DNA of 64,000 bases from Eggerthellaceae bacterium (GTDB lineage Bacteria; Actinomycetota; Coriobacteriia; Coriobacteriales; Eggerthellaceae): NCBI GenBank assembly GCA_030524475.1, contig JAUNGO010000004.1:10856-74855 (forward strand). Reading direction: 5' to 3'. Of the stretch, positions 13,001 to 27,767 are shown in pieces (within the stretch, counting starts at the first letter, position 1; every line of letters begins with the position of its first letter). Under the pieces are notes generated by a model that saw nothing but the letters and a program-made list of their open reading frames with translations, had not been told where the DNA came from and did not search any database. A program made the translations under genes and the position numbers.

Positions 13001-13254
13001 TTTCCTGGGTTAACAAAAGTAATGAACCAATCAACAATCTCGCCTTGCTCCATGCGCGCGGCGGCAATCTGCGTCAATTCGTCGTGATTCAGGGAAAAAC
13101 CTGTCGTTTCCGTGTCGACGATAACGATATTTCGATCAAATTCCCCGAAATCAGACTCTTTCGCCCGTTGAGGCAGCGCCATATAGCGCTCAACCACCTC
13201 TTGAGGCGTGCCCTCGAGAATGTATTTCATCAAGGATTCGTTTGCTTGAAGCAT
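10021..13254 (-). CDS. dinG: DnaQ-type exonuclease fused to DinG-family helicase
   Basis: A 1077-residue fusion. The N-terminal DEDDh 3'-5' exonuclease has DTETTGF (about residue 47), AHNAEFDRNF, and HRADDD. The helicase has Walker A in EAGTGVGKS near 344, and DEAH near 579 (VVDEAHGAENE). Four cysteines that could bind an iron-sulfur cluster are seen at YPC, HDC, KC and SC. The C-terminal motifs FWEGFDAPG and GRLIRKSTDEG complete an XPD-like superfamily 2 helicase. Such enzymes unwind 5'-3' at damaged or R-loop-bearing DNA. ATG 13254 follows GGGGA on the minus strand. An exact parS inside the gene encodes V399-S-R-E-T in a Ser/Ala/Asn-rich linker. It is divergent from the gene at 13337. Confidence 0.9.
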   Translation of the reverse strand: MLQANESLMKYILEGTPQEVVERYMALPQRAKESDFGEFDRNIVIVDTETTGFSLNHDELTQIAAARMEQGEIVDWFITFVNPGKSIPDDVAHLTNIHDEDVKDAPLPAEALARLVEFVGDAKVVAHNAEFDRNFTTKHPAGYPLLENTWLDSLDLSRIALPRMKSHRLIDLVKAFGAPLSTHRADDDVAATCALFRILLAAVESMPAPLVREIAGMATPAEWPTVKVFSYFASREEQEGIIEGSPSAEGASSTLPFSLRSLRRARVGKSEQRAKRDPMHMMPDGRVPAMSFPSKEAVEEAFSAAGVVGALYDDYEPRSEQLEMAQAVRRAFATSENLMVEAGTGVGKSMAYIVPAVLTARENNIAVGVATKTNALLDQLVYKELPGLEKALREQRANVSRETSSLGASTGTHGARNASNDARAANAADVARAARNDAVGSDVAPAFTFAALKGFSHYPCLRKIERIATEGPGKRTVANTEYSQAPALAALLSFVEQTEYDDMDSLKIDYRVLPRRSITTTSHDCMRRKCPFYGTSCFVHGARRRAESADVVVTNHSLLFCDLAADGGLLPPVRFWVVDEAHGAENEARRAFSLELSLDDMGSLAQRVSAEETSRNVFVRAERTVTLNDENAITLFFALTSKAKAAGREFAQAEAEFASHVRDLLFYDPSKRSKGYEYVDLWINDEIRAGSAFQALSGFGCTMSERAEKLVTASQELVGYLEDVEGAAVVQREIASVAMELKDIIRACDVILSSGSDAYVYAAHLCHKADRGGDKLEALLYNVGAELCDTLYANTRSVVFASATLTANNSFQSFQDAMGLNSDESSRAGSLSLASSYDFDRQMTVYVAKDMPEPSEPRYLSALQDLLVAAHRAQQGSMLTLFTNRKEMEKCFEVVQPELKTDNLRLVCQKWGVSVKGLRDDFLADEHLSLFALKSFWEGFDAPGATLKGVIIPKLPFAKPTDPLSCERSARDDQAWRRYVLPAAVLEIKQAAGRLIRKSTDEGVLILADKRLVTKGYGKAFLNSLPSKNIRVCTVADIVRDIERNAGRDFESGSACGSARDLACDPEHGAQNAHREG
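12046..12061. other. parS site (exact), inside dinG
   Basis: Exact 16-mer within the dinG coding sequence, read as V-S-R-E-T in a low-complexity linker. Confidence 0.85.
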
Positions 13255-13336
13255 CGTTTCCCCACGTTCTGTTATCTAAGATTCTCTATACTAAATGCTA
13301 AAGAAATATTGTACCAACCCCAAGATCGAGGTGACC

Positions 13337-13975
13337 ATGAATCAGTATTTTGGTACATATCAAACATTCGAGACAACCTCCAAAAACGAAGCCGCTGCTC
13401 TTATCGGCGCCGACAACCTTGTTGGCGATTTGTTCGAAATAGACATAGAGCTCGAAGAAAGTGGGCACCGCGCGTGGCTTGTCAACAAGTTCGGAAAGCG
13501 CGTCGGCTTCTTCAACGAGGCATTTTCTCGTAAGCTCAGCGTCATGAAGGCGCGTGGGCTCGCCATGAAAGCGATTCTCTCGTTCGTCGCCTACACCGAT
13601 CATCCCGATCCTGGCTACTATTGGGGTGAAATGGCTGTGATCTGCTACAACACGGCTTACGAAAGCGCTTTTGAAAAGTTCATTGGCTCTACATGCGAAC
13701 ATATGTGCGATGGTGTGCGCGTTCGCGTCGATCTTGGTGACGACGGAGTCGCGCATATCATAGAAAGCAACGGGGAATGGACTCCGTCCCAAACCGAGCC
13801 AATGCCTAAGATGGACAAAGGCACCGCTGTAATGAAAAGTAAGCGAAGCGTTAGCGAGAAAATGATCGAACAAGGGCGCAAAGGGAACAAGGGATGTTAC
13901 GCCATTAGTTGGATATTTTTGTTTGTTCTCGCCGCAGCCGTCGTTTTCGGATTGAGATCATGCGGAGTTTTTTAA
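13337..13975 (+). CDS. Tail-anchored hypothetical protein
   Basis: A 212-residue protein I cannot name. The start at ATG 13337 is chosen over an upstream ATG at 13295 because GAGGTGACC precedes it. The soluble part (about 1-180) contains a segment with LVGDLFEIDIELEESGH and VNKFGKRVGFFNE, faintly like HIRAN-type small beta domains, but this is not secure. A single hydrophobic helix at about 187-205 lies next to the C-terminus, implying a tail-anchored cytoplasmic protein. It is divergent from dinG and followed by a parS-bearing hairpin at 14001-14030 that could end its transcript. TATACT at 13287-13292 is a possible -10 box. Confidence 0.7.
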   Translation: MNQYFGTYQTFETTSKNEAAALIGADNLVGDLFEIDIELEESGHRAWLVNKFGKRVGFFNEAFSRKLSVMKARGLAMKAILSFVAYTDHPDPGYYWGEMAVICYNTAYESAFEKFIGSTCEHMCDGVRVRVDLGDDGVAHIIESNGEWTPSQTEPMPKMDKGTAVMKSKRSVSEKMIEQGRKGNKGCYAISWIFLFVLAAAVVFGLRSCGVF

Positions 13976-14007
13976 CTCATTTCGCAAGCAGGTAAGAAAG
14001 GAGGGGA

Positions 14008-14023
14008 TGTTTCACGTGAAACA
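14008..14023. other. parS site (exact) in terminator-like hairpin
   Basis: Exact 16-mer inside a near-perfect 30-bp palindrome (one G-T pair) between convergent genes 13337 and ddl. Confidence 0.85.
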
Positions 14024-14053
14024 TTCCCTCCCTATTTTGAAGTTTGGCGTATT

Positions 14054-15001
14054 CTATTTCTCTTCCAGGGCAAATTTAATCAACTTGGTGCAGAGTTCAG
14101 GAAAGGAAATACCCGCCGCTCGCGCGGCATCGGGAAGAAGAGACGTTCCCGTCATGCCGGGAATAGTATTTGTTTCCAATATCCAACTAACGCCTTCTTC
14201 ATCAAGAATAAAATCAGACCTTGATACCCCCGAGCAACCTAATGCTTTATGAGCCCTGACCGCAAGATCCTGAATCTCACGCGCCACGGTGTCCGACAAA
14301 CGCGCTGGGCAAATATGTTCCGATCCGCCTGGCGCATACTTCGAGTCGAAATCATACGAGGAACTCTTGGGAATGATTTCAATAATAGGAAGAGCGAAGG
14401 GATCCTCGTTTCCCAATACAGCAACAGTAAGCTCGGTTCCTGTTATGTACCTCTCGATCAACGCGTGCGTGTCATACTTAAAAACATCAAGAAGCGCCTT
14501 TTCAATGTCTTCTTTGCTGTGAGCGATAAATACACCCAGCGAACTACCCTCAGTTGAGGGCTTTATAACACAATCGACACCTATCTTCTCGATAATCTCA
14601 TCGATTGAGTACGCATCGTCTTTTTTTAAACTGAGCGAAGTAGGTGTTGGGATATCTGCGTCGATGTAAAAACGCTTTGCCTGAACTTTGTCGATGGCAA
14701 GTGCGCTTGACCATACGCCAGACCCTATATAAGGAAGCTCTATCAATTCCAAAAACCCTTGGATGACACCATCTTCGCCGCCACGGCCATGTAAGCACAG
14801 GAAAGCTACGTCAAAACCGCCGTCGATAAGTGATTTCAAATCTTCCTTTTTTGCGGGATCAAACACTTCAACCGAGTAACCCGCCTCAAGAAGAGCAGCC
14901 CGCGCACCCTCTCCCGAAGCGAGCGAAACCTCCCTCTCACCGCTTGTGCCACCCGCTAAAAGAGCTACTTTGCATGTATGGGGATCGAAGGAATTGAACA
15001 T
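14054..15001 (-). CDS. ddl: D-alanine--D-alanine ligase
   Basis: A 315-residue ATP-grasp enzyme that joins two D-Ala for peptidoglycan precursors in the cytoplasm. Family motifs are present: LLAGGTSGEREVSLASG at the N-terminus, HGRGGEDGVIQGFLE, KPSTEGSSLGV, and near the C-terminus the Mg-binding ILETNTIPGMT. The open frame begins at 15040, but ATG 15001 follows AGGTGAACTC and begins at the conserved domain, so it is the start. A TGATATACT extended -10 box lies at 15040-15048 (reverse strand), and the parS site at 15065 covers the -35 position. Its codons are less GC-rich than those of flanking genes, as in the whole 13.3-22.8 kb segment. Confidence 0.95.
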   Translation of the reverse strand: MFNSFDPHTCKVALLAGGTSGEREVSLASGEGARAALLEAGYSVEVFDPAKKEDLKSLIDGGFDVAFLCLHGRGGEDGVIQGFLELIELPYIGSGVWSSALAIDKVQAKRFYIDADIPTPTSLSLKKDDAYSIDEIIEKIGVDCVIKPSTEGSSLGVFIAHSKEDIEKALLDVFKYDTHALIERYITGTELTVAVLGNEDPFALPIIEIIPKSSSYDFDSKYAPGGSEHICPARLSDTVAREIQDLAVRAHKALGCSGVSRSDFILDEEGVSWILETNTIPGMTGTSLLPDAARAAGISFPELCTKLIKFALEEK

Positions 15002-15039
15002 GAGTTCACCTTTCAGAAAAACGACTTCGGCAGTAAGCA

Positions 15040-15068
15040 AGTATATCAGAGAACATAACGCGAATGTT
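15040..15068 (-). promoter_or_regulatory. Likely ddl promoter with parS over the -35 position
   Basis: On the minus strand TATACT (15045-15040) is preceded by TGA, an extended -10. The -35 position falls on the first bases of the parS at 15065-15080. Confidence 0.55.
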
Positions 15069-15080
15069 TCACGTGAAACA
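15065..15080. other. parS site (exact)
   Basis: Exact 16-mer in a 22-bp palindrome upstream of ddl. Confidence 0.85.
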
Positions 15081-15197
15081 TTCTTAAAACGTTGGACCGA
15101 CGTTTACTTATTCGTTTTCTACTCTGTGTTGTTGGCCTTATCGATCAGATGCCCTTACAGCCTAACTTTTCTCATGCTTTAACGTTAATCGCTGAAA

Positions 15198-15213
15198 TGT
15201 TTCACGTGAAACA
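15198..15213. other. parS site (exact)
   Basis: Exact 16-mer, 47 bp from the next site, between divergent ddl and rlmN. Confidence 0.85.
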
Positions 15214-15244
15214 TTTTTTCGGGTGCAATAGGATTGTTTTCGAG

Positions 15245-15260
15245 TGTTTCACGTGAAACA
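15245..15260. other. parS site (exact)
   Basis: Exact 16-mer inside a 28-bp perfect palindrome (15239-15266), just upstream of the rlmN -10 box. Confidence 0.85.
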
Positions 15261-15287
15261 CTCGAAGCATGTTAGTGCCCGACCTTT

Positions 15288-15293
15288 TATAAT
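15288..15293 (+). promoter_or_regulatory. rlmN -10 box (TATAAT)
   Basis: Consensus TATAAT only 7 bp before the ATG at 15301. Expected transcription start falls on or next to the start codon, so a leaderless mRNA is possible. No clear -35 is seen. Confidence 0.5.
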
Positions 15294-15300
15294 GGAACAT

Positions 15301-16353
15301 ATGGATAATCAAATTAAAACATATGATATTGAGCAGCTCACTGATGTATTCTCCAAGATGGGGCAACCTAAATTCCGTGCAAAGCAACTTTACGAGTGGC
15401 TGCACGTTCATCAAGCTTGCTCGTACGACGAGATGACCAACCTTCCGCTATCTCTCAGGCAGCAGCTTTCCGAAGAATATCCTCTCACAAAACTTGCCAT
15501 TACCAACAAGCAGGTCTCTCAAGACGGGACACGCAAATATATTTTTGCGCTTGAAGACGATAACGAAATTGAGGCGGTTGGAATCCCCTCGAAAGAAATA
15601 TCTGACGAGGGTACCACCGACACGTCGACTAGATTGACCGTATGCTTTTCAACGCAAGTGGGATGTGCCATGGAATGCGCGTTTTGTGCAACGGGACACG
15701 AGGGGTTCACACGTAATCTCACTGCAAGCGAAATGGTTGAGCAAATTTCCCTTATTCAAAAAGACTTCGGTATCAGGGTCTCCAACGTTGTTGCAATGGG
15801 CCAGGGTGAACCGTTTTTAAACTACGAGCAGCTTATAACGGCTCTCCATATTATCAACAGTCAAGACGGAATGCGCATAGGTGCACGACATATAACGGTC
15901 TCTACATGCGGGGTTATTAAAGGAATTGAGAGTTTTTCCAAAGAACCTGAGCAGTTTACTCTCGCCATTTCGCTCCATTCTGCATCGCAAAATATACGCG
16001 ATTTCCTTATGCCGCGTGTGTCAAACCAACCGATTGAAAAGTTAAAAGAAGCAATAAGGCGATACAACAAAAAGACAGGTCGCCGAGTTACGCTTGAATA
16101 TATGCTCATAAAGGGAGTCAACGACGGCGAGGATGATCTTGAAGCGCTTTTATATTTCTGTAAAGAGATTTTTGTTCATGTCAACATTCTAACGATGAAC
16201 GAGATAGACGACTCGCCATTTCAGCCTTCGAAAACTAAAGTTGTGAAAAAGTGGATCGACGCGCTTGAGAGAAATCATATTGAAGCAACAGTAAGAAATC
16301 CTCGCGGATCAGATATTGCCGGAGCATGTGGGCAGCTTAAAAATTCAAAATAG
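15301..16353 (+). CDS. rlmN: 23S rRNA (adenine2503-C2)-methyltransferase RlmN
   Basis: A 350-residue radical SAM RNA methyltransferase that methylates C2 of A2503 in 23S rRNA (and A37 of some tRNAs in characterised homologues). The 4Fe-4S ligands are C122, C126 and C129 in GCAMECAFCATG. The C-terminal catalytic cysteine region RGSDIAGACGQL is intact, as is VRNPRG. The open frame starts at 15244 inside a parS site, which is not plausible. ATG 15301 gives the family N-terminus; 15292 is an alternative. The TATAAT at 15288 suggests a leaderless or very short leader. A 30-bp parS palindrome follows the stop and looks like its terminator. Confidence 0.95.
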   Translation: MDNQIKTYDIEQLTDVFSKMGQPKFRAKQLYEWLHVHQACSYDEMTNLPLSLRQQLSEEYPLTKLAITNKQVSQDGTRKYIFALEDDNEIEAVGIPSKEISDEGTTDTSTRLTVCFSTQVGCAMECAFCATGHEGFTRNLTASEMVEQISLIQKDFGIRVSNVVAMGQGEPFLNYEQLITALHIINSQDGMRIGARHITVSTCGVIKGIESFSKEPEQFTLAISLHSASQNIRDFLMPRVSNQPIEKLKEAIRRYNKKTGRRVTLEYMLIKGVNDGEDDLEALLYFCKEIFVHVNILTMNEIDDSPFQPSKTKVVKKWIDALERNHIEATVRNPRGSDIAGACGQLKNSK

Positions 16354-16369
16354 GCAATTGAGAAGAGGA

Positions 16370-16399
16370 GCCCGAATGTTTCACGTGAAACATTCGGGC
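16370..16399. terminator. parS-centred perfect palindrome after rlmN, terminator-like
   Basis: Perfect 30-bp palindrome centred on the parS at 16377-16392, 16 bp after the rlmN stop and followed by CTTTCTAT. Confidence 0.55.
16377..16392. other. parS site (exact)
   Basis: Exact 16-mer between convergent rlmN and parB. Confidence 0.85.
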
Positions 16400-16467
16400 C
16401 TTTCTATACTGGATTTCAGCGACGCTGTTTTTTTAGGTCAAGTCCCACTCATACATCGCAGCGAAAA

Positions 16468-16483
16468 TGTTTCACGTGAAACA
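16468..16483. other. parS site (exact)
   Basis: Exact 16-mer ending 1 bp beyond the parB stop codon. Confidence 0.85.
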
Positions 16484-16484
16484 T

Positions 16485-17495
16485 TTAAGAGACGTAAGCG
16501 AGGAGTTCCTCAAAAAGTCTCTCGAGATCAGCTTCATCGTTAAACTCAATCTCGATTTTGTTCTTACCTTTCGAAGATTTCACCCTCACATTGGTCTTAA
16601 GGACATCCTTCAAGGCTTTCGCGACGGATTTATACATAGGCGGTATTGGCTCTCGCTGACGAGAGCCGTCACTTGGCTTGCCCGACAAAAGATGAGCAAG
16701 GTTTTCCGCCTCCCTCACGCTTAACTTATCTTCAGTCAATTTATTTGCGAGGGTTTCTCGCCCTTCCTTGGTAGGAACAGACAAAATAGCCCGCGCATGA
16801 CCTGCCGTAATCTTGTCTTCAAAGAGAAGTTGCTGAGCTTCTTCAGGAAGATCAAGGAGACGAAGAGCGTTAGCAACAGTCGAGCGACCTTTCGACATTG
16901 CCTGGGCAACGTCAGATTGAGTCATATTTCGGCGCTCCATCATGCGCTTATAGCCATAAGCTTCCTCAATCGGGTTAAGATCGGAACGTTGAATATTCTC
17001 GATAAGGGCCAGTTCAAGCGCACGATCTTCATCAACATCCTTAATACGTACAGGAACTGTCTTCAAGCCAAGTTTCTTACACGCCTGCCAACGGCGCTCG
17101 CCGGCAATAATTTGATACGAGTTTTCGCCTATGGTTCTCACTAAGATAGGTTGCAGAAGCCCGTCTTTCTCAATGGAAGCCGCCAGCTCGTCAATTTCGT
17201 CTTGTTTGAAATTGGTGCGCGGTTGATTAGGGTTTGGAACAACTGATTCAAGAGGAACCTCGTCTATTTTGCGGTGAGAGCGGTAAGGAAGAGGAGACGT
17301 TTCAGCGCTTTCAACTTCGTTTTTCTCGGTTTCAAATGTTTCACGTGAAACATTGTAAGTTGTTTCGCCGTTTTCATCTACAACAACGCGTTCCCGCGAC
17401 GGAGAGGGAATAGCAGGTGCAACTGGTTCGTACGAACCACCTAAAAGAGAGTTTAATCCACGCCCTAATCCACTTCTATTGTTGTTTTTAGCCAC
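16485..17495 (-). CDS. parB: Chromosome-partitioning CTPase-type DNA-binding protein ParB
   Basis: A 336-residue ParB/Spo0J. The N-terminal segment (GLGRGLNSLLGG) is the usual ParA-interacting part. A linker of about 20-70 is followed by the ParB/Srx domain with GERRWQACKKLG, the CTP-binding motif, and ENIQRSDLNPIEEA. The HTH region (MTQSDVAQAMSKGRSTVANALRLL) reads parS, and the C-terminal part dimerises. ParB loads on parS and spreads as a CTP-dependent clamp. It starts with GTG at 17495 and overlaps parA by 8 bp. Its own gene contains an exact parS that encodes V49-S-R-E-T in the linker; B. subtilis spo0J also carries an internal parS. The many sites in this window are its presumed targets. 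Confidence 0.96.
   Translation of the reverse strand: MAKNNNRSGLGRGLNSLLGGSYEPVAPAIPSPSRERVVVDENGETTYNVSRETFETEKNEVESAETSPLPYRSHRKIDEVPLESVVPNPNQPRTNFKQDEIDELAASIEKDGLLQPILVRTIGENSYQIIAGERRWQACKKLGLKTVPVRIKDVDEDRALELALIENIQRSDLNPIEEAYGYKRMMERRNMTQSDVAQAMSKGRSTVANALRLLDLPEEAQQLLFEDKITAGHARAILSVPTKEGRETLANKLTEDKLSVREAENLAHLLSGKPSDGSRQREPIPPMYKSVAKALKDVLKTNVRVKSSKGKNKIEIEFNDEADLERLFEELLAYVS
17337..17352. other. parS site (exact), inside parB
   Basis: Exact 16-mer in the parB linker coding region. Confidence 0.88.
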
Positions 17496-18456
17496 GGCTG
17501 ATCACTTCCTTTGCAAGTTCAATATAGGAGATAGACCCTTTTCCTTTAGGATCGTATTGGGTGATAGGTTGCCCAAAACTTGGAGCTTCTGACAGCTTAA
17601 CAGTGCGAGGAATAAGTGTATTGAATACGATTTTTCCGAAATAGCCTCGCACTTCGTCGACCACCTGCTTGGAAAGCAAGGTTCTATTGTCATACATCGT
17701 GAGAAGAACCCCATAGATATCAAGAGTGGGATTAAGCCTTGATTTGACACGTTTCATTGATTCAAGAAGTTTTGTCACGCCCTCGAGAGCATAAAACTCG
17801 CATTGAATCGGAATAAGGAGCTTATCAGCTGCAACTAGTGCATTTACTGTTAAAAGTCCGAGGGATGGAGGGCAATCAATGAAAATGTAGTCATAACGTC
17901 CTCGCATCGACCCGACGGCATCCTTGAGTCTATTCTCACGCGCCATTTCGGATACAAGCTCAACCTCAGCGCCCGCAAGGTTAATGGTCGCGGGAGCAAC
18001 GTCGAGACCAGGGCAAACATCGGGGATAATAACCCTCTCTATAGGCTCATCAGCCAGAAGAACATCATAAATGCACTGTTGAACGGCAGATTTTTCTATA
18101 CCGAGTCCACTCGAGGAATTACCTTGTGGGTCGAGATCAACGAGAAGAACCTGCTTTCCCATCTCACCGAGTGCAGCCGCAAGATTAATAGCGGTGGTTG
18201 ATTTACCCACACCGCCTTTTTGATTGATGATAGCTATGATCTTTGTTTGCCCTACAACGTGTTTTACAGGTTCTTTTTCTTCGTAAGACCTTAAAGACTT
18301 GGATTCAATCTTGTCTTCAAGAGGTTGAACCACATCGCGAACGATAACAACAGGTTCATCAAGATCATCCGATGTATTTTCCTGAACCTCGCTCACCTGT
18401 TTATTGACAGTCTTTGTCTCATTTTTTTCACGTTTAAGACTATCTAGAAATCCCAC
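17488..18456 (-). CDS. parA: Chromosome-partitioning ATPase ParA (Soj)
   Basis: A 322-residue deviant Walker ATPase that works with ParB to position origins. A GTG start at 18456 is preceded by AAAGGAGGAAACC. An N-terminal extension of about 70 residues, Glu/Lys-rich, comes before the ATPase core IIAIINQKGGVGKSTTAINLA, with the deviant Walker A KGGVGKST at about 80-88. Later motifs include LLVDLDPQGN and FIDCPPSLGLLTVNAL. The gene overlaps parB by 8 bp, so they form an operon. Two exact parS sites lie upstream (18511, 18560), one abutting the likely -35 box, which suggests feedback control by ParB. Confidence 0.96.
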   Translation of the reverse strand: MGFLDSLKREKNETKTVNKQVSEVQENTSDDLDEPVVIVRDVVQPLEDKIESKSLRSYEEKEPVKHVVGQTKIIAIINQKGGVGKSTTAINLAAALGEMGKQVLLVDLDPQGNSSSGLGIEKSAVQQCIYDVLLADEPIERVIIPDVCPGLDVAPATINLAGAEVELVSEMARENRLKDAVGSMRGRYDYIFIDCPPSLGLLTVNALVAADKLLIPIQCEFYALEGVTKLLESMKRVKSRLNPTLDIYGVLLTMYDNRTLLSKQVVDEVRGYFGKIVFNTLIPRTVKLSEAPSFGQPITQYDPKGKGSISYIELAKEVISRG

Positions 18457-18482
18457 GGTTTCCTCCTTTTCGACTTAAAACG

Positions 18483-18510
18483 AGTATATCAAACGAAATT
18501 CACGTTGGAA
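18483..18510 (-). promoter_or_regulatory. Likely parAB promoter next to parS
   Basis: On the minus strand an extended -10 TGATATACT (TATACT at 18488-18483) is 16 bp from a weak -35 TTCCAA (18510-18505). The parS at 18511 begins directly beside that -35. Confidence 0.55.
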
Positions 18511-18526
18511 TGTTTCACGTGAAACA
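18511..18526. other. parS site (exact)
   Basis: Exact 16-mer in a 26-bp palindrome abutting the parA -35 region. Confidence 0.85.
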
Positions 18527-18559
18527 TTCCAGTGGAGGTAACAGAAAAGCAGCTCAAAA

Positions 18560-18575
18560 TGTTTCACGTGAAACA
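18560..18575. other. parS site (exact)
   Basis: Exact 16-mer 1 bp after the DUF559 stop at 18577 (minus strand). Confidence 0.85.
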
Positions 18576-18576
18576 T

Positions 18577-18975
18577 TCACACCTTACTTTTTAAAAGAGA
18601 GAAGCCATTTCCCATAAGGTCGTTACGACGGGCTTTAACTTCCTTATCTATTACTTCACATACTCCCTCAAAACTCTCGTCAATGTCTCTATTAGAAAAC
18701 CGGAGTTGCTTTATTTCCCTCATTTCAAGAAAAGAAGTGCGTGTGGCGTCATAGGCCAGTGAACGTTTTTCGTAATGCTGGCCGCCATCAAGTTCAACGC
18801 TAAGGCGTGCCTTGCGACAGTAGAAATCAACTATATAGTTCCCAATAACTTTTTGAGCTTTGAAAGTAACTTCGTATTCAGCAAGAAAGCGATACCAGAG
18901 TTTCTTTTCGTGAGGAGTCATGTTCCTTCTAAGGTAAAGAGCCCTCTCCGCTAAAACTTTTCTCCTTGTCATCAT
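18577..18975 (-). CDS. DUF559 family endonuclease-like protein
   Basis: A 132-residue protein with the DUF559 fold, related to very-short-patch-repair-type endonucleases. Recognisable features are the N-terminal LRRNMTPHEKKLWYRFL, then NYIVDFYCRKARLSVELDGGQHY, and a C-terminal half with the R-x-x-x-L-E-M-R-E-I region. D and E in VDFY and ELDGGQH are plausible active-site residues. Start ATG 18975 follows AAAGGG. It lies upstream of parAB on the same strand with a 120 bp gap. These genes often occur singly in bacteria and their substrate is not known. Confidence 0.8.
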   Translation of the reverse strand: MMTRRKVLAERALYLRRNMTPHEKKLWYRFLAEYEVTFKAQKVIGNYIVDFYCRKARLSVELDGGQHYEKRSLAYDATRTSFLEMREIKQLRFSNRDIDESFEGVCEVIDKEVKARRNDLMGNGFSLLKSKV

Positions 18976-19134
18976 TTGTTTCCCTTTCTTCTAGAAACTC
19001 GAGACAAGAAGATCGTAACAGCGCCGTTTAACCAAGAGATGCGAGAAATCTCACACCACTCTCACTCAATTCGCTTTGATATCACACAAGTTTGATACCA
19101 AGTTCAAACAAAAAATCAGAAGCTCATATGCCAA

Positions 19135-19150
19135 TGTTTCACGTGAAACA
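19135..19150. other. parS site (exact)
   Basis: Exact 16-mer in the rsmG-DUF559 spacer. Confidence 0.85.
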
Positions 19151-19215
19151 TCTCTGGATATGACTCGTATTTAACCGAAATTCAACCAAAAACTAACTAA
19201 AACCTAACTAGAAAA

Positions 19216-19231
19216 TGTTTCACGTGAAACA
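19216..19231. other. parS site (exact)
   Basis: Exact 16-mer in a 30-bp perfect palindrome (19209-19238) that includes the end of rsmG. Confidence 0.85.
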
Positions 19232-19235
19232 TTTT

Positions 19236-19895
19236 CTATACCGTGAGCGGTTTTTTTTGAGCCATACTTATTCGACGCGGAAGCTTTATTTTTGCTTTAG
19301 CCACTTTCTCAAAAGAAACGATCTCACGATACGTCTCGCCATCGCTTAAAGTTAAACTACGGCGAGAAACCAATTTCATTCCAAGAATCTTCTCCAAAGA
19401 TTCGGCATGATTTAATTCGTCCTCCGAAAGACGAGCTTTATAACAAACTAAACGACCTCCCTTAACGAGCAAAGGAGACGACAACTCGAGTAGGGAAGGG
19501 AGTTGAGACAAGGCGCGGGCGGTCAAGACGGCGAAAGCGGATCTTTTCTCAAGGGCGAGGTCTTCTATTCGACCGGGATACGTCTTAATTTGACCCGATA
19601 GCGATAGTTTCGATAGAGCTTCCTCTATAACAGCTGCTTTCTTTTTTACCGAGTCAACGAGAACAGCTTCTCGTCCGGTTTTAATGGATACAGGAACGCC
19701 GGGAAAACCACCACCTGTTCCTAAATCGCCGTACAACCCTTGCGGAGCAGCGTTGATTTCAGGAAGTGCTGACAAGGAATCTTGCACATGAAGAATGCGC
19801 GCCTGGTCAAGGGATCCAATTCTCGTGAGATTGACAGTCTTGTTTGCTTCAAGAATCAAATCAAGGTATAAGGCAATCATTTCGTCATCGGACAT
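19236..19895 (-). CDS. rsmG: 16S rRNA (guanine527-N7)-methyltransferase RsmG
   Basis: A 219-residue class I SAM methyltransferase (GidB) that methylates G527 of 16S rRNA. Motifs include NKTVNLTRI, HVQDSLSALPEI and the SAM loop YGDLGTGGGFPGVPVSI at about residues 54-70, then TARALSQLPSLLEL. ATG 19895 follows AAGGAGCAACA. It is a separate unit, since jag upstream ends in a terminator at 20222-20259 and four parS sites lie in between. Gene neighbours parA and parB match the common order rsmG-parA-parB. Confidence 0.95.
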   Translation of the reverse strand: MSDDEMIALYLDLILEANKTVNLTRIGSLDQARILHVQDSLSALPEINAAPQGLYGDLGTGGGFPGVPVSIKTGREAVLVDSVKKKAAVIEEALSKLSLSGQIKTYPGRIEDLALEKRSAFAVLTARALSQLPSLLELSSPLLVKGGRLVCYKARLSEDELNHAESLEKILGMKLVSRRSLTLSDGETYREIVSFEKVAKAKIKLPRRISMAQKKPLTV

Positions 19896-19910
19896 TGTTG
19901 CTCCTTAAAA

Positions 19911-19926
19911 TGTTTCACGTGAAACA
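19911..19926. other. parS site (exact)
   Basis: Exact 16-mer in a 24-bp palindrome directly upstream of the rsmG ribosome site. Confidence 0.85.
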
Positions 19927-19948
19927 TTTTGCCATCGGTTACACAGAA

Positions 19949-19964
19949 TGTTTCACGTGAAACA
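19949..19964. other. parS site (exact)
   Basis: Exact 16-mer in a 30-bp perfect palindrome (19942-19971). Confidence 0.85.
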
Positions 19965-20012
19965 TTCTGTGCAATAGTAACCGAAGAAACAACCTATCCA
20001 CAACAACGAAAA

Positions 20013-23061: not shown

Positions 23062-24645
23062 CTACAGCTCGCGAATGATTTGGGTGAGCGCCTCGATCTC
23101 TTCCTGCACCTCTTGATCGTTGCGCATCTTCTCCTCGACGGCGCCGACCGAGTGCATGATGGTGGCGTGGTCCCTGTTGAATTTCTTGCCGATGGCGCCG
23201 AACGTCAAGTCGAGCGTCTGGCGGCACAGGTAAATGGCCACTTGGCGCGGGTACGTGACGCTGCGCGCGCGGGAAGGCCCGACTAAATCGCTGTGCTTCA
23301 CGCGGAAGAAGTTCTCCACTTCCTTCTGCACGTCCTCGACTGTGAGGTTTTTCGACGCGCCGCCCGAAAAGTGGTTCTCAAGCAATACGCGCACGTCGGC
23401 GATGGTGGGGTTCGGCTGGTTGAGCGCCGTCATTTGATAGAGAACCTTGGTCACGGCGCCGCGCAGCTCGCGGATGTTCGACCCGGAGTTCTCGGCGATG
23501 TACATTTGGACGTCTTCAGGGACGTCGAACTGGTCAAACACGTTGTTGGCGCAGTATTCCTTGATAAAGCTTTTGACGATGCCGAGCTTCGTCTCGATCT
23601 CGGGCGGCTGGATGTCGATCGTGGCGCCTTGGCTGAACCGTGAGTGGTAGCGCTCGTCGATGTCGATGTTTTTAGGCGCGCGGTCGGCCGAATAGACGAT
23701 CTGCTTCCCGCTGGCGATCAGTTTGTTGTGAATCTGAAAGACCATGCCGAGCGTCTCTTTTTTGCCTTGAAGGCCTTGGATGTCGTCGATAAGGAGAACG
23801 TCGGCGTCCTCATAGCGCGTCTTGAAGTTCTTGTAGCTCGATTTCTCCTTGTCGTGCGCGTTGGTTGCCTCGACGTACTCGGAAAGGAACTCCGTCGAGT
23901 CGACGTAGACGGTGCGCAGGTGGGGTTGCGTCTCGCAGATGTAGTTTTGGATGGCGCGCATAAGGTGCGTCTTGCCAAGCCCGCTCTTTCCGTAGATAAA
24001 GAAGGGGTTGAGGGGCGTTCGACCAGGCATTTCAGCGACATTGACCGCCATTGAGTAGGCCATGCGGTTCGAGTCGCCGATGACAAAGTTCTCAAACGTG
24101 CACGTCGAGACGACTCCGCAGCTGCTTTCCGCGGCGGGTCGATTCTCCCGAGGTTGATCCGCCGAGGGGTCAGCTGAGGCGACAATCGAGGTTGTTGCCG
24201 CCATAGTGGGCTCACTTTGCTGAAGGGGGGCTTGGGCGGCGTATTGAGGTTGCGACGCATTCGCTGGCTGTCGTACCGCCTGGGGCTGTTGCGGCGTTGC
24301 CGTTGCCGTTGCCGGCGCTTGCGAAGTTTGAGGCGTCTGTGCGCTTGCAGCGGGACGCGCAGACGGCGCGGCGACCTGAGGGGTCGGTTCAGCGACTTCG
24401 ACCACAACCGTAAAGGGAACGCCGTGGAGGTCGAGCAGACCCTGTTTGATCAGGTCGACGTAGTGCCTCTCGACCCATGTTTTAATGAAGTCGTTGTCGG
24501 CGGTGAGCATGAGAAAGCCCTCGCTCATGGCTTGCGGCTGGAGGCGGGAGAAAAAGGCGTCGACCTGGGACGCGTCGACCGAGTCGTATTCCTTGACGCG
24601 CGCGCAGAGGCTATCCCAGTTTTCGTTGATTTTTCCGCTGTCCAT
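23062..24645 (-). CDS. dnaA: Chromosomal replication initiator DnaA
   Basis: A 527-residue initiator that binds oriC and melts it with ATP. Domain I is short (1-85, WDSLCARV...ADNDFIKTWVERHY). A Pro/Gln/Ala-rich linker follows to about 175. The AAA+ core has Walker A GKSGLGKTH at about 218 and Walker B LLIDDIQ near 283. Domain IV near 490 carries the DnaA-box signature DHATIMHSVGAVEEK. The frame is open to 24726, but ATG 24645 gives the conserved N-terminus; no strong ribosome site precedes it. It points away from oriC and is divergent from dnaN. A 10-bp inverted repeat lies in its leader. Confidence 0.97.
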   Translation of the reverse strand: MDSGKINENWDSLCARVKEYDSVDASQVDAFFSRLQPQAMSEGFLMLTADNDFIKTWVERHYVDLIKQGLLDLHGVPFTVVVEVAEPTPQVAAPSARPAASAQTPQTSQAPATATATPQQPQAVRQPANASQPQYAAQAPLQQSEPTMAATTSIVASADPSADQPRENRPAAESSCGVVSTCTFENFVIGDSNRMAYSMAVNVAEMPGRTPLNPFFIYGKSGLGKTHLMRAIQNYICETQPHLRTVYVDSTEFLSEYVEATNAHDKEKSSYKNFKTRYEDADVLLIDDIQGLQGKKETLGMVFQIHNKLIASGKQIVYSADRAPKNIDIDERYHSRFSQGATIDIQPPEIETKLGIVKSFIKEYCANNVFDQFDVPEDVQMYIAENSGSNIRELRGAVTKVLYQMTALNQPNPTIADVRVLLENHFSGGASKNLTVEDVQKEVENFFRVKHSDLVGPSRARSVTYPRQVAIYLCRQTLDLTFGAIGKKFNRDHATIMHSVGAVEEKMRNDQEVQEEIEALTQIIREL

Positions 24646-24671
24646 GGCCGAGTCTTTCTTGGAGGTTGTAG

Positions 24672-24695
24672 GCACAAGGGATATCTCCCTTGTGC
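24672..24695. promoter_or_regulatory. Inverted repeat in the dnaA leader
   Basis: Perfect 10-bp arms (24672-24681 and 24686-24695, GCACAAGGGA and its complement) with loop TATC, 27 bp upstream of the dnaA start. Could be an operator or mRNA hairpin. Confidence 0.5.
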
Positions 24696-24762
24696 GCAAG
24701 GTAGTCTTGGGAAGATATTCTATCAAAAGCGCGCCAGAGCGCCGAGCAGGCGTCGGGGCGCG

Positions 24763-25929
24763 TTACAAGCTTTGGGCGACTTCCATCCCCAAAGACGTGA
24801 GCATACGCTTTTTGTTCGCCGTCTTTTCGAGCAATCCTGCTTCCTCGAGCTTTTTCAGCATGTTGTAAAGGCTCGAGTTGGGGATGTCGAGGATGTTGCA
24901 CAGCTCGGTGATCCCCAGCACGCCTTCGCTGAGGAATATCGGCAACAAGTCGCGCTCTTTCGCCGACAGCGCGGCGAGGGCTGGATGAACATGAGCAGCT
25001 CCCCGCACGTACCCGTTTTGCGCGTGCGGTTGAAACGCCGTGGTTTGAGGCACAGAAAAGTATGCGTCGTACGGCATTGCAGGCTGGTTGGGATAGGACT
25101 GAAACTGCGGCTGAGGAAACTCGCTCGCGGGGGCGTACTGCGTTTGAGCGTAAGGCTGGCTTTGCCCGAAAGCATAGGAAGGCGCGCTTTCGTACTGAGG
25201 CGCCGCCGCGGCCTGCGGTTGCGAGTACGGCGCCGCGGGCTGCGGCGTCGTCTGAGGCTGTGCCTGCATGGGAGATTGCGCCAAGGGTTGAACCTGCGCT
25301 TGCGGCTGAGGCGACATCCGGTTGTTCTCGGGAGAGGCGCCGTCGACGCTAATCGTAACCACCGAACCGGCACCCATGTTGTCTTCGATGGTGATGGTTC
25401 CGTGGGACGACTCAAGGTACTCCCTCACGATGGGAAGTCCTGACCCGACTCCGCGAATATACTTCTTCATAGGTTCTATGGCCGACGAGAAGCCTGGTAG
25501 CTGCGCGTTTTCTTTGTGGGCGATGCCGGGTCCTTGGTCGGCGAAGCGAATCGTGCACCCGTGGTCGAGCACCGACACCACGATCTCCTTGAATCGCGCG
25601 TGGATGAAGTTTTCCGCCACCTCCCTGATCACGGTGTAGGAAATGGGCCCGCCCGCGCTGTGGGCGTAGTCGTATATGCACGAGGAAAGCCGCTCTATGT
25701 ACTCGCTTGTTTCTGCGGGGTGTATCTCAATGACGCGCGGCGCGCTTCTCAGATCGTCGTAGATAGCCACGCGCGCCGTGGTGTTCACGTAAGCGTAGTC
25801 GAAGGGCTCTTCCGTGTTGTCGGAAGGGCTTTCTGCCGGCGCGTCGTTGGCCTGGCTCTTTTCGACATCAACGGAGAAAGCCTCGGAAGGGGAGGCGGTT
25901 GAGACGAGATTGTAGACAACTTCCTGCAT
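24763..25929 (-). CDS. HATPase (anti-sigma-kinase-like) protein with C-terminal helix-turn-helix
   Basis: A 388-residue protein between dnaA and oriC. The N-terminal half is a GHKL/HATPase_c domain: N-box REVAENFIHARF, G1 FADQGPGI, G2 GVGSGLPIVREYLESSHG, then GAGSVVTIS. No phospho-acceptor His domain is seen, as in SpoIIAB/RsbW-type kinases. A Gln/Pro/Ala/Tyr-rich linker of about 120 residues follows, then a winged-HTH-like end (LSAKERDLLPIFLSEGVLGITELCNILDIPNSSLYNMLKKLEEAG). ATG 25929 is preceded by GGAGTAAAAGCG; ATG 25953 has no such site. I do not recognise a described family with this exact layout. It is transcribed toward dnaA, so a link to initiation control is possible, but inferred. 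Confidence 0.8.
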   Translation of the reverse strand: MQEVVYNLVSTASPSEAFSVDVEKSQANDAPAESPSDNTEEPFDYAYVNTTARVAIYDDLRSAPRVIEIHPAETSEYIERLSSCIYDYAHSAGGPISYTVIREVAENFIHARFKEIVVSVLDHGCTIRFADQGPGIAHKENAQLPGFSSAIEPMKKYIRGVGSGLPIVREYLESSHGTITIEDNMGAGSVVTISVDGASPENNRMSPQPQAQVQPLAQSPMQAQPQTTPQPAAPYSQPQAAAAPQYESAPSYAFGQSQPYAQTQYAPASEFPQPQFQSYPNQPAMPYDAYFSVPQTTAFQPHAQNGYVRGAAHVHPALAALSAKERDLLPIFLSEGVLGITELCNILDIPNSSLYNMLKKLEEAGLLEKTANKKRMLTSLGMEVAQSL

Positions 25930-26069
25930 CGCTTTTACTCCGTTTTGAGCCATGTTTTTTAGAGATATTCAAGATTGTTCACGGCTATTCTATCGTTTTT
26001 CGGACGCTGAATGGCTCTGAATGCGGATCACCTGCGGTTTTCACAGGTAAAGAAAGCAGCTTTCGAAAG

Positions 26070-26088
26070 TTTTCAACATCTTTCAACA
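26070..26088 (+). promoter_or_regulatory. DnaA-box-like pair (TTTTCAACA / CTTTCAACA)
   Basis: TTTTCAACA at 26070-26078 followed at 26080-26088 by CTTTCAACA. Same word recurs at 26486-26503. Confidence 0.45.
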
Positions 26089-26121
26089 AAATGTGAATTT
26101 CGAAAGTCTGTCAACCTGCGG

Positions 26122-26171
26122 TTTTCATAGTTATCAACTATTTTTTCACTGAAAGTTGATAACTATGAAAA
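26122..26171. repeat. 18-bp inverted repeat in oriC
   Basis: Perfect arms 26122-26139 and 26154-26171 (each with TTATCAACT or its complement), loop of 14 nt. Each arm contains a DnaA-box-like word in opposite orientation. Confidence 0.8.
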
Positions 26172-26344
26172 ATGGTGAAAAAAATGGTTGGTTGAAAAGG
26201 CTATTTTGTTAAAAACTGTCGAATTTTTTCTTGACTTTTTAGGTTTTGAGGGTTTTCCCTGTTCGTGATGATGCCTTTTTCGTTTAATGGTTTGAAATGC
26301 GTTTAAATGTTCGCTTTTGATGCAAAGTTTGATTTAATTGCAAT

Positions 26345-26370
26345 AAAATACCTGATCAAACAGGTATTTT
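26345..26370. repeat. 10-bp inverted repeat in oriC
   Basis: AAAATACCTG (26345-26354) and its complement (26361-26370) around ATCAAA, inside AT-rich sequence. Confidence 0.7.
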
Positions 26371-26485
26371 TAAATCATTCACAAATAAGTTCGCAAAAAA
26401 GAATCAACCATAAACACGTTGTTTAGCGTCGCTCTGGACTAGGGTTTCTCGGTCTTTCAACCGCCTTTAAGTCAAAAAAGCGAAG

Positions 26486-26503
26486 TTTTCAACATTTTCA
26501 ACA
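26486..26503 (+). promoter_or_regulatory. Tandem DnaA-box-like words
   Basis: Two abutting copies of TTTTCAACA with no spacer. Confidence 0.5.
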
Positions 26504-26610
26504 ACGCACTTGGAAAAGAAAGTGGAAAACAGCACTGTCGCAAACCGGATTGATAAAACTCGATTGCGCTCATTTCTGTCGCGTCGCCGCCGTGCCGCCG
26601 CGAGCGCCGC

Positions 26611-26616
26611 TATAAT
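26611..26616 (+). promoter_or_regulatory. dnaN -10 box
   Basis: Consensus TATAAT 51 bp before the dnaN ATG; the -35 is weak. Confidence 0.5.
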
Positions 26617-26666
26617 GATTGCTCAATGAAACACGCGCGACCGCTGCGGAAAGAGGGAATGAGACC

Positions 26667-27767
26667 ATGAAGTTCAGCATCAACAAGTCTGAGTTGCAAA
26701 ACGCTATATCCGTTGTGCTCAAAGGCGTTTCGACGCGCTCGACCCTGCCTGTTTTGTCGGGAATCCTGCTTGACGCGCAGGGCGACAAGCTCGTCATGCA
26801 GGCAACCGACTTGGAGCTCTCTATTCAGTATTCCGCGGCGGCGTTGGTCGAGGAGGAGGGTAAAGCCGTCCTTCCCGGCAAACTTTTCTCTGAGATCGTG
26901 AAGAACCTCTCCGACGCGGCCGTTCACGTGGAGGCGCGCGACGACCAAGCGTTCATCACGTGCGACACGTCGTCGTTCTCCATTAAAGCGCTCAGCCCCG
27001 ACGACTTCCCGGGTTTTCCGTCGGTCGACACGCACCAGCGCATCGAAATTCCCTTCGCGCAGTTCTCGTCAATGGTCAAGCGCGTGTCGCGCGTGGTTTC
27101 GAAGGACGAAAGCCGCGCCATCCTCACCGGCGTACTGATCACGCTCGAGAACGGGTTGCTGCGCATGGTTGCCACCGACTCGTATCGACTCGCGGTAACC
27201 GAGGCGGCGCTGCCCGACTCGTCGGCCGACGAGTTCCAAGCTGTCATTTCGGGCACGTTCCTGTCGGAGATAGCCTCGCTGCCTAAAGCCGCCTCACCCG
27301 TTTCGATTGCGCTGGCCGACAACCAAATCGTGGTTAACTGCGAAGACACGGTGTTTATCAACCGTCGCATCGAGGGAAATTTCCCCAACTACAAGCAGCT
27401 GCTCCCCGACTCCTACGCCACCCGTGCGACCCTTGACGTCGATCGCTTGGTGGCGGGCGTGAAACGCGCATCGCTTCTCGGGTCGTCGACCTCGCCCGTG
27501 AAGTTCGACCTGAACGCCGCCTCGCAAACGGCGCAGGTTTCCGCGGCGTCGCAGGATGTGGGCTCGGCCCAGGAAACTATTCCCTGCGAAATTGAGGGCG
27601 AAGACGTGGAAATTGCCTTCAACTACTCGTATGTCCTCGAAGGATTGTCGGCTGTCTCGGGCGACCGCGTGAACCTCGAGATTCAGACGGCGCTCAAGCC
27701 GGGCATTTTCCGCGCCGAAGAGCCTGAAAACTACCTTTACCTCGTCATGCCCGTGCGTATTTCGTAG
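26667..27767 (+). CDS. dnaN: DNA polymerase III beta subunit (sliding clamp)
   Basis: A 366-residue clamp with three repeated domains, beginning MKFSINKSELQNAISVVLKGV. Typical pieces include RSTLPVLSGILLDA, the middle VVSKDESRAILTGVLI and the C-terminal YLVMPVR segment. The clamp tethers DNA polymerase and other proteins to DNA. ATG 26667 is chosen because GAGGGAATGAGACC precedes it; the frame is open from 26619. It reads away from oriC, opposite to dnaA. A parS site follows 4 bp after the stop. Confidence 0.97.
   Translation: MKFSINKSELQNAISVVLKGVSTRSTLPVLSGILLDAQGDKLVMQATDLELSIQYSAAALVEEEGKAVLPGKLFSEIVKNLSDAAVHVEARDDQAFITCDTSSFSIKALSPDDFPGFPSVDTHQRIEIPFAQFSSMVKRVSRVVSKDESRAILTGVLITLENGLLRMVATDSYRLAVTEAALPDSSADEFQAVISGTFLSEIASLPKAASPVSIALADNQIVVNCEDTVFINRRIEGNFPNYKQLLPDSYATRATLDVDRLVAGVKRASLLGSSTSPVKFDLNAASQTAQVSAASQDVGSAQETIPCEIEGEDVEIAFNYSYVLEGLSAVSGDRVNLEIQTALKPGIFRAEEPENYLYLVMPVRIS

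Follow-up and report, generated by a model that had tools for sequence, protein, structure and literature searches.

A dnaA-linked gene for a GHKL-winged-helix protein in deep-branching Actinomycetota, a candidate regulator of the start of replication

We analyzed a stretch of 64,000 nucleotides from an Eggerthellaceae bacterium (hereafter the window), in which a gene next to dnaA encodes a protein that combines a GHKL ATPase domain with a winged helix. The genes concerned and the gap between them are as follows:

23062..24644, minus strand: dnaA, whose longest open reading frame extends to 24726 (TIGR00362, 2.9e-118)
24763..25929, minus strand: coding sequence of the dnaA-linked GHKL-winged-helix protein, with a Shine-Dalgarno sequence GGAG 8 bases before the ATG at 25929
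25930..26666, no strand assigned: AT-rich gap with many DnaA-box-like sites (10 boxes; GC skew), probably all or part of oriC as well as the gene's promoter region
26667..27767, plus strand: dnaN, starting with the ATG at 26667 (open reading frame; 61-91% tblastn identity to dnaN of relatives)

The frame is real and lies on the minus strand, in agreement with the initial annotation. It encodes 388 amino acids from the ATG at 25929 and 396 from that at 25953 (open reading frame 24763-25953). The former start, which had also been annotated, is the better one, since GGAG stands 8 bases before it and the ATG at 25953 has no similar site; amino-acid numbering throughout follows the 396-aa frame. 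The next gene downstream on the same strand is dnaA, at a distance of 36 bp if its longest frame is taken, or about 118 bp if it starts at 24644, where an ATG begins MDSGKINENWDSL, and no terminator-like site was found in 24600-26700, which includes the interval between the two genes. The AT-rich gap 5' of the gene (665 bp) contains 10 DnaA-box-like 9-mers with at most one mismatch, and dnaN lies beyond it on the other strand; GC skew changes sign, going from negative in the 18-22 kb bin of the window to positive in the 22-26 kb bin. Thus, the gene lies where it had been placed, upstream of dnaA on the same strand and beside a probable oriC.

Two folded domains, joined by a linker, make up most of the protein:

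25342..25794, minus strand: GHKL (Bergerat) ATP-binding domain with N-terminal strand segment, aa 54-204 (PF02518; AlphaFold2 pLDDT mostly >80; 3lmm_C, Z 13.9-14.7)
25597..25626, minus strand: N box REVAENFIHA, aa 110-119 (E114, N115 and H118 invariant and E111 nearly so in 27 orthologs; N and H invariant in 40 deep orthologs)
25522..25539, minus strand: G1 box DQGPGI, aa 139-144 (D, G and G invariant)
25435..25452, minus strand: G2 box GVGSGL, aa 168-173 (GxGxG invariant)
24979..25341, minus strand: Gln/Pro/Ala-rich linker, not conserved, aa 205-325 (pLDDT mostly <60; variable length)
24766..24975, minus strand: winged-helix DNA-binding domain with basic wing KKR, aa 327-396 (pLDDT 94-98; MarR/MntR folds; K382/R383 nearly invariant)

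First, Pfam analysis of the window protein assigned aa 106-204 to PF02518 (HATPase_c; E 9e-10), and the nucleotide-binding motifs are intact in all three boxes. In the 27 family orthologs, D139, G141 and G143 of the G1 box and G168, G170 and G172 of the G2 box are all retained, and K382 and R383 of the wing hardly vary; across 40 phylum-wide orthologs, the matching E, N, H, D and G residues were still invariant or nearly so. No HisKA/DHp match was detected in the window protein, nor among the families shown for the 40 orthologs, which bears out the earlier description of a GHKL ATPase domain without a histidine phospho-acceptor. Second, the C-terminus of the window protein matched HTH_IclR (1e-5), TrmB (2e-5) and HTH_5 (2e-5) in Pfam, and aa 327-396 aligned with the winged helices of MarR, MntR, TrmB and IclR proteins (Z 11-13 over about 70 aa, 1.0-1.5 A for most of the matches listed), so the winged-HTH-like end proposed before is also present. 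It differs from these proteins in that dimerisation helices and a ligand domain are lacking and a GHKL domain is found instead. NCBIfam gave only sub-threshold kinase matches for the window protein, and no curated model of Pfam or NCBIfam spans the whole protein. Finally, AlphaFold2 modeling based on 71 sequences placed two confidently predicted domains at about aa 54-204 and aa 327-396; the mean pLDDT was 72 and the pTM 0.47 because the N-terminus (about 50 aa) and the linker are disordered; the GHKL part folded alone reached a pLDDT of 85.7 and a pTM of 0.83. Coupling between the GHKL domain and the winged helix is not visible in the AlphaFold2 model (pTM 0.47, linker disordered), which counts against a switch mechanism.

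The Gln/Pro-rich linker of the initial annotation does exist in the window protein, but it is lineage-specific and unconserved; its length runs from 13 to 193 aa across the 76 loci scored, with a median of 53.5. Since the linker varies by lineage, the Gln/Pro/Ala composition that it shares with the linker of DnaA, once offered as a hint of a tie between the two proteins, says little. In the same 76 loci, linker length correlated with the length of the DnaA N-terminus (rho 0.38) and also with GC content (0.45); the former correlation is therefore not specific, and co-evolution of the linker with DnaA was rejected.

We then compared the model with known folds, using lists in which the absence of a family does not exclude it. 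The best match for the GHKL fold was DIP2311 of Corynebacterium diphtheriae (PDB 3lmm), with Z 14.7 over 148 aa at 2.7 A for the whole model and Z 13.9 over 163 aa at 4.1 A for the GHKL domain alone. DIP2311 presumably belongs to the AlbA_2/HATPase_c_4/winged-helix group, in which a winged helix also follows the GHKL domain; the window protein differs from it in having no AlbA_2 or HATPase_c_4 domain, the identity is about 17%, and DIP2311 is not known to be linked to dnaA. SpoIIAB came second (Z 10.9 over 129 aa, 20% identity), tied with the catalytic domains of histidine kinases (Z 10.4). A GHKL fold without a DHp/histidine acceptor domain is common to the window protein and the SpoIIAB/RsbW proteins, whereas the winged helix is an extra part and the neighbor is dnaA rather than a sigma factor or antagonist. 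Sensor histidine kinases resemble the protein in the PF02518 catalytic domain, present in 40 of 40 orthologs, and the best PDB sequence match was Sporulation kinase B (2.8e-8); they differ in that the window protein has no HisKA/DHp, sensor or membrane part.

The distribution of the gene was examined at several levels. A search with the single protein gave matches in 52 of 60 relatives, several of these matches being histidine kinases only. With a profile at E <= 1e-20, the gene was found in 169 of 197 genomes of a class sample (157 of 169 genomes of good quality) and in 109 of 296 genomes of a phylum sample; a broader profile at 1e-12 raised the latter number to 120, or 119 once G382 had been dropped for a partial kinase-like match within a 513-aa frame. 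A scan of named genomes confirmed 153 places, and the 80 that were kept all came from Eggerthellaceae or their relatives, including Adlercreutzia, Eggerthella, Gordonibacter, Slackia, Senegalimassilia and other genera. The gene is chromosomal and occurs as a single copy in nearly all genomes, the few extra matches being split or partial. WhiB (PF02467), which we take to be a marker of the better-known Actinomycetes and Acidimicrobiia, was present in 140 of the 296 phylum-sample genomes, and a comparison of the two lists by eye found it together with our gene in one genome only (G484; 88% complete, 510 contigs). Thus, the gene is almost only found in WhiB-less lineages. As a yardstick, Escherichia coli K-12 has no such gene between rpmH and dnaA. 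An origin from mobile elements was rejected: 56 pattern matches in viral contigs included no relative, phages had none, and the one match among plasmids was a histidine kinase.

To account for the absences, we checked 28 genomes without a good match (13 from the single-protein search and 15 from the class profile), leaving out 11 further unmatched genomes of the class. In 21 of the 28, dnaA was also missing from the assembly, indicating that most absences are assembly gaps in which the contig with the origin is lacking. The other seven carry dnaA: G142, G205, G108 and four genomes of family f13. In G142 dnaA lies at a contig edge and the gene may have fallen off the end, whereas the origin region is complete in G205, G108 and the four f13 genomes and the profile finds no gene there, so that six of the seven are real losses or decays. 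G205 even retains a relic 5' of an undamaged dnaA, namely the first 69 aa in the right place (locus L190, about 5858-6064; 51% identity, E about 2e-17). The decay is recent, and G119 of the same genus has an intact copy. Because real losses occur, though few, the gene is near-universal in its lineages yet not indispensable.

We next analyzed gene order in 137 neighborhoods, comprising the 80 named loci and 57 loci fetched from outside the family (38 + 19). The initial annotation had called for a survey of this kind, naming the lack of a conserved link with dnaA as the outcome that would speak against it, and the link was kept in all 133 neighborhoods in which dnaA was readable. In 130 of them dnaA lies immediately 3' of the gene and in the same direction, and in the remaining three the two genes diverge across the origin gap; adjacency and codirection with dnaA are thus near-universal in gene-bearing lineages. 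Three layouts were distinguished. In layout A (43 of the 80 named loci), the gene follows the rpmH side and is itself followed by dnaA and dnaN, all in one direction. In layout B (34 of the 80, plus the window), the block of gene and dnaA is inverted relative to dnaN and rpmH, and the gene faces dnaN. In layout C (L072, L083 and L110), the gene alone is flipped and divergent from dnaA. Outside the family, dnaA is present on 53 of the 57 stretches (36 + 17), all 53 with layout A, the sole layout seen there; the other four stretches stop short of dnaA. Spacing was also close: with start codons taken from the longest frames and the 36 bp of the window itself left out, the distance to dnaA was at most 51 bp in 31 of the 36 gaps listed from outside the family, and five were 4-base overlaps, which are typical of translational coupling.

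The region 5' of the gene was analyzed in the family set, i.e., the window and the 80 named loci, of which 77 have a usable gap. The following features of the window were identified:

25987..25992, minus strand: putative -10 element TAGAAT of the gene's promoter, the likely counterpart of TACAAT in relatives
26030..26037, minus strand: CCGCAGGT box, 10 bp further from the -10 than the 32-34 bp of relatives
26114..26121, minus strand: second copy of CCGCAGGT

TTTTCCACA was present in 61 of the 77 gaps, against 1.2 expected. In 36 of the 77, TACAAT lies no more than 130 bp from the start, and 17 of these 36 promoters have GCAGGT or CCAGGT 32-34 bp ahead of that element. In relatives (L033-L112), the CCGCAGGT/CCCAGGT box stands just upstream of the promoter's -35. 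A search of 79 whole family genomes for GCAGGTGNNTAGATT revealed nine exact occurrences, seven of them at the gene's promoter, and no hit for the reversed control; the combination of box and -35 is therefore almost private to this promoter. We considered the GCAGGT-type box, the only conserved one in the promoter, as the protein's own operator and rejected this as the leading reading: three gene-less loci (L192-L194) still have AAAACCGCAGGT upstream of dnaA, and because the box persists in these gene-less regions it is probably not the protein's own site. Evidence for a fixed distance between this box and the DnaA boxes was weak outside the family. Other candidates fared no better. TCCCTTTCA, enriched in 21 gaps, mostly represents the rpmH leader where the gap adjoins rpmH. 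Gapped palindromes showed little enrichment, and no palindromic operator was conserved across relatives. The dnaA leader of the window has a perfect 24-bp inverted repeat, GCACAAGGGATATCTCCCTTGTGC (24672-24695), which was rejected as a conserved site, as arms of at least 8 occur in only 6 of 78 leaders.

DnaA boxes are found in the gap 5' of the gene in all three layouts. Beyond the family, among the class and phylum loci, 21 of 38 (L151-L182) carry a strict triple CCACA-TGTGGA-TGTGGA 46-201 bp ahead of the gene; two further hits occur in 326 kb, and none of the 81 family loci has the strict form. This arrangement, an inverted pair plus a third box, is a phylum-wide element, perhaps serving DnaA autoregulation or as the core origin. 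In two loci of family f40, the largest box cluster is found between dnaA and dnaN, with 14 (L166) and 15 (L174) perfect boxes; in L166, where the gap 5' of the gene is readable, that gap has only a few. These f40 loci seem to have their main origin on the opposite side of dnaA.

The protein's intact ATP site within a GHKL fold, its winged helix with a conserved basic wing and the place of its gene beside dnaA at the origin are best explained by a regulator, and we infer, from sequence, a role in the control of dnaA or of initiation. This reading is supported by the adjacency to dnaA in families very distant from that of the window, and the tie to dnaA by the fact that the two genes stay together even where the block is inverted (34 of 80). 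On balance, we consider the protein probably to be a nucleotide-switched DNA-binding regulator that is co-expressed with DnaA and acts on the dnaA unit and/or the origin. GHKL folds are found in nucleotide-switched dimers. The gene would be an ancient, dedicated partner of dnaA encoding a cytoplasmic one-component regulator, in which the state of the GHKL domain (ATP-bound and dimeric, or ADP-bound/apo) would switch DNA binding by the C-terminal MarR-like winged helix. Its promoter would lie inside the DnaA-box-rich origin region and the gene would come first in a two-gene unit with dnaA, so that the dose of the protein would follow that of DnaA. Most likely, it would act back on the origin region, tuning transcription of the unit and/or the action of DnaA according to nucleotide state. 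Of this scheme, the sequences show the anatomy, its conservation, the link to dnaA and the place beside DnaA boxes, and we infer ATP binding and switching, dimerisation, a DNA target, co-transcription and whatever sign the effect may have. Against it stand the losses of the gene, the survival of the promoter box in three gene-less loci, which speaks against a simple version, the lack of a conserved palindromic operator, and evolutionary distances that correlate no better with those of dnaA than with those of dnaN. A more specific form, in which the GHKL domain reads ATP/ADP and the winged helix at the origin couples the energy state to dnaA expression and origin firing, is a tentative possibility.

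It is rather unlikely, though worth weighing, that the protein acts instead at the protein level, its GHKL domain binding DnaA and stimulating or restraining its assembly, with the winged helix as a tether to the origin or a contact to protein. The operon-like pairing with dnaA would suit such a partner, as would the fold comparison, in which SpoIIAB, a binder of sigma-F or its antagonist, ranks second (Z 10.9). Hda, YabA and Soj also regulate the initiator, as do SirA, DiaA and HobA, and all have folds different from that of the present protein; we know of no initiator regulator described as a GHKL-winged-helix protein. The likeness to SirA, DiaA and HobA consists in a lineage-restricted gene whose neighborhood points to DnaA. 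Taxon-specific partners of DnaA do exist, with DiaA, HobA and SirA named as such (PMC13270200). On the other hand, the gene shows no co-divergence with DnaA beyond that with dnaN: evolutionary distances over 55 loci correlated with r 0.79 for dnaA and r 0.87 for dnaN, which, being no higher for dnaA, reflects vertical descent rather than a specific partnership; this mirror-tree comparison gave no dnaA-specific signal. In addition, gene-less genomes retain dnaA.

That the gene is a passenger, retained in a slowly rearranging origin cluster without any tie to dnaA, seems improbable. Conservation of the whole rsmG-jag-yidC-rnpA-rpmH / dnaA-dnaN-recF-gyrB cluster around it fits this explanation, but the gene has moved together with dnaA where the block is inverted (layout B) or stands opposite it on the far side of the origin gap (layout C), and a coupling-type spacing to dnaA is kept. 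Control of the divergent rpmH-rnpA-yidC genes or of growth in general, rather than of dnaA, appears very improbable: the promoter does face rpmH in layout A, the only layout seen outside the family, whereas in layout B the gene has moved with dnaA to the dnaN side, away from rpmH. Least credible is an anti-sigma factor or partner-switching kinase of the SpoIIAB/RsbW kind, which the fold match to SpoIIAB and the TIGR01925 (spIIAB) matches in 21 of 40 orthologs (E 5e-6 at best) favor, but to which the winged helix is foreign and against which stand the equal fold match to histidine kinases, the lack of any PF13581 (RsbW-type) match in the window protein at E <= 1, neighbors (dnaA, dnaN and the rpmH cluster) that include no sigma factor or STAS antagonist, and a single weak match to a SpoIIE-type phosphatase elsewhere in the genome. 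PF13581 had no match at the gene's locus in its own genome, where matches elsewhere fell below the cut-off. The initial label of "anti-sigma-kinase type" is only partly right, as it amounts to a fold-level tie between SpoIIAB and the histidine kinases.

The regulator that we favor would bear on a long-standing question, namely how replication is timed outside E. coli, Bacillus subtilis and Caulobacter. To our knowledge, next to nothing has been established about cell-cycle control in WhiB-less actinobacterial lineages. The dnaA-linked gene gives a direct way into the question of timing in Coriobacteriia of the gut and in other deep-branching Actinomycetota. As a gene conserved at dnaA across very distant lineages of one phylum, and apparently undescribed, it is on sequence grounds a strong candidate for a regulator of the start of replication. 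If it senses nucleotides, it would provide a simple link from energy state to replication; if the ATP-sensing reading is true, it would be the first GHKL-type switch dedicated to initiation of chromosome replication, already present in the ancestor of the WhiB-less actinobacterial lineages and missing from almost all those that bear WhiB. In the open-access literature, we found no account of a gene for a GHKL or ATP-binding protein lying 5' of dnaA in such bacteria. Two papers deal with other genes of the region: SCO3872 (DUF3566), a different gene, is described as invariably near oriC in the actinobacteria treated, with Coriobacteriales set apart (PMC4255298), and dciA sits between recF and gyrB (PMC5109545).

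Two minor observations concern the surroundings of the gene. The origin cluster has been rearranged within the family of the window (loci L033-L112), with block inversion in 34 of 80 loci and inversion of the gene only in three. Furthermore, GC content falls to 0.44-0.50 at about 12000-20000 of the window, compared with about 0.6 elsewhere, which may mark a foreign stretch beside the origin cluster.
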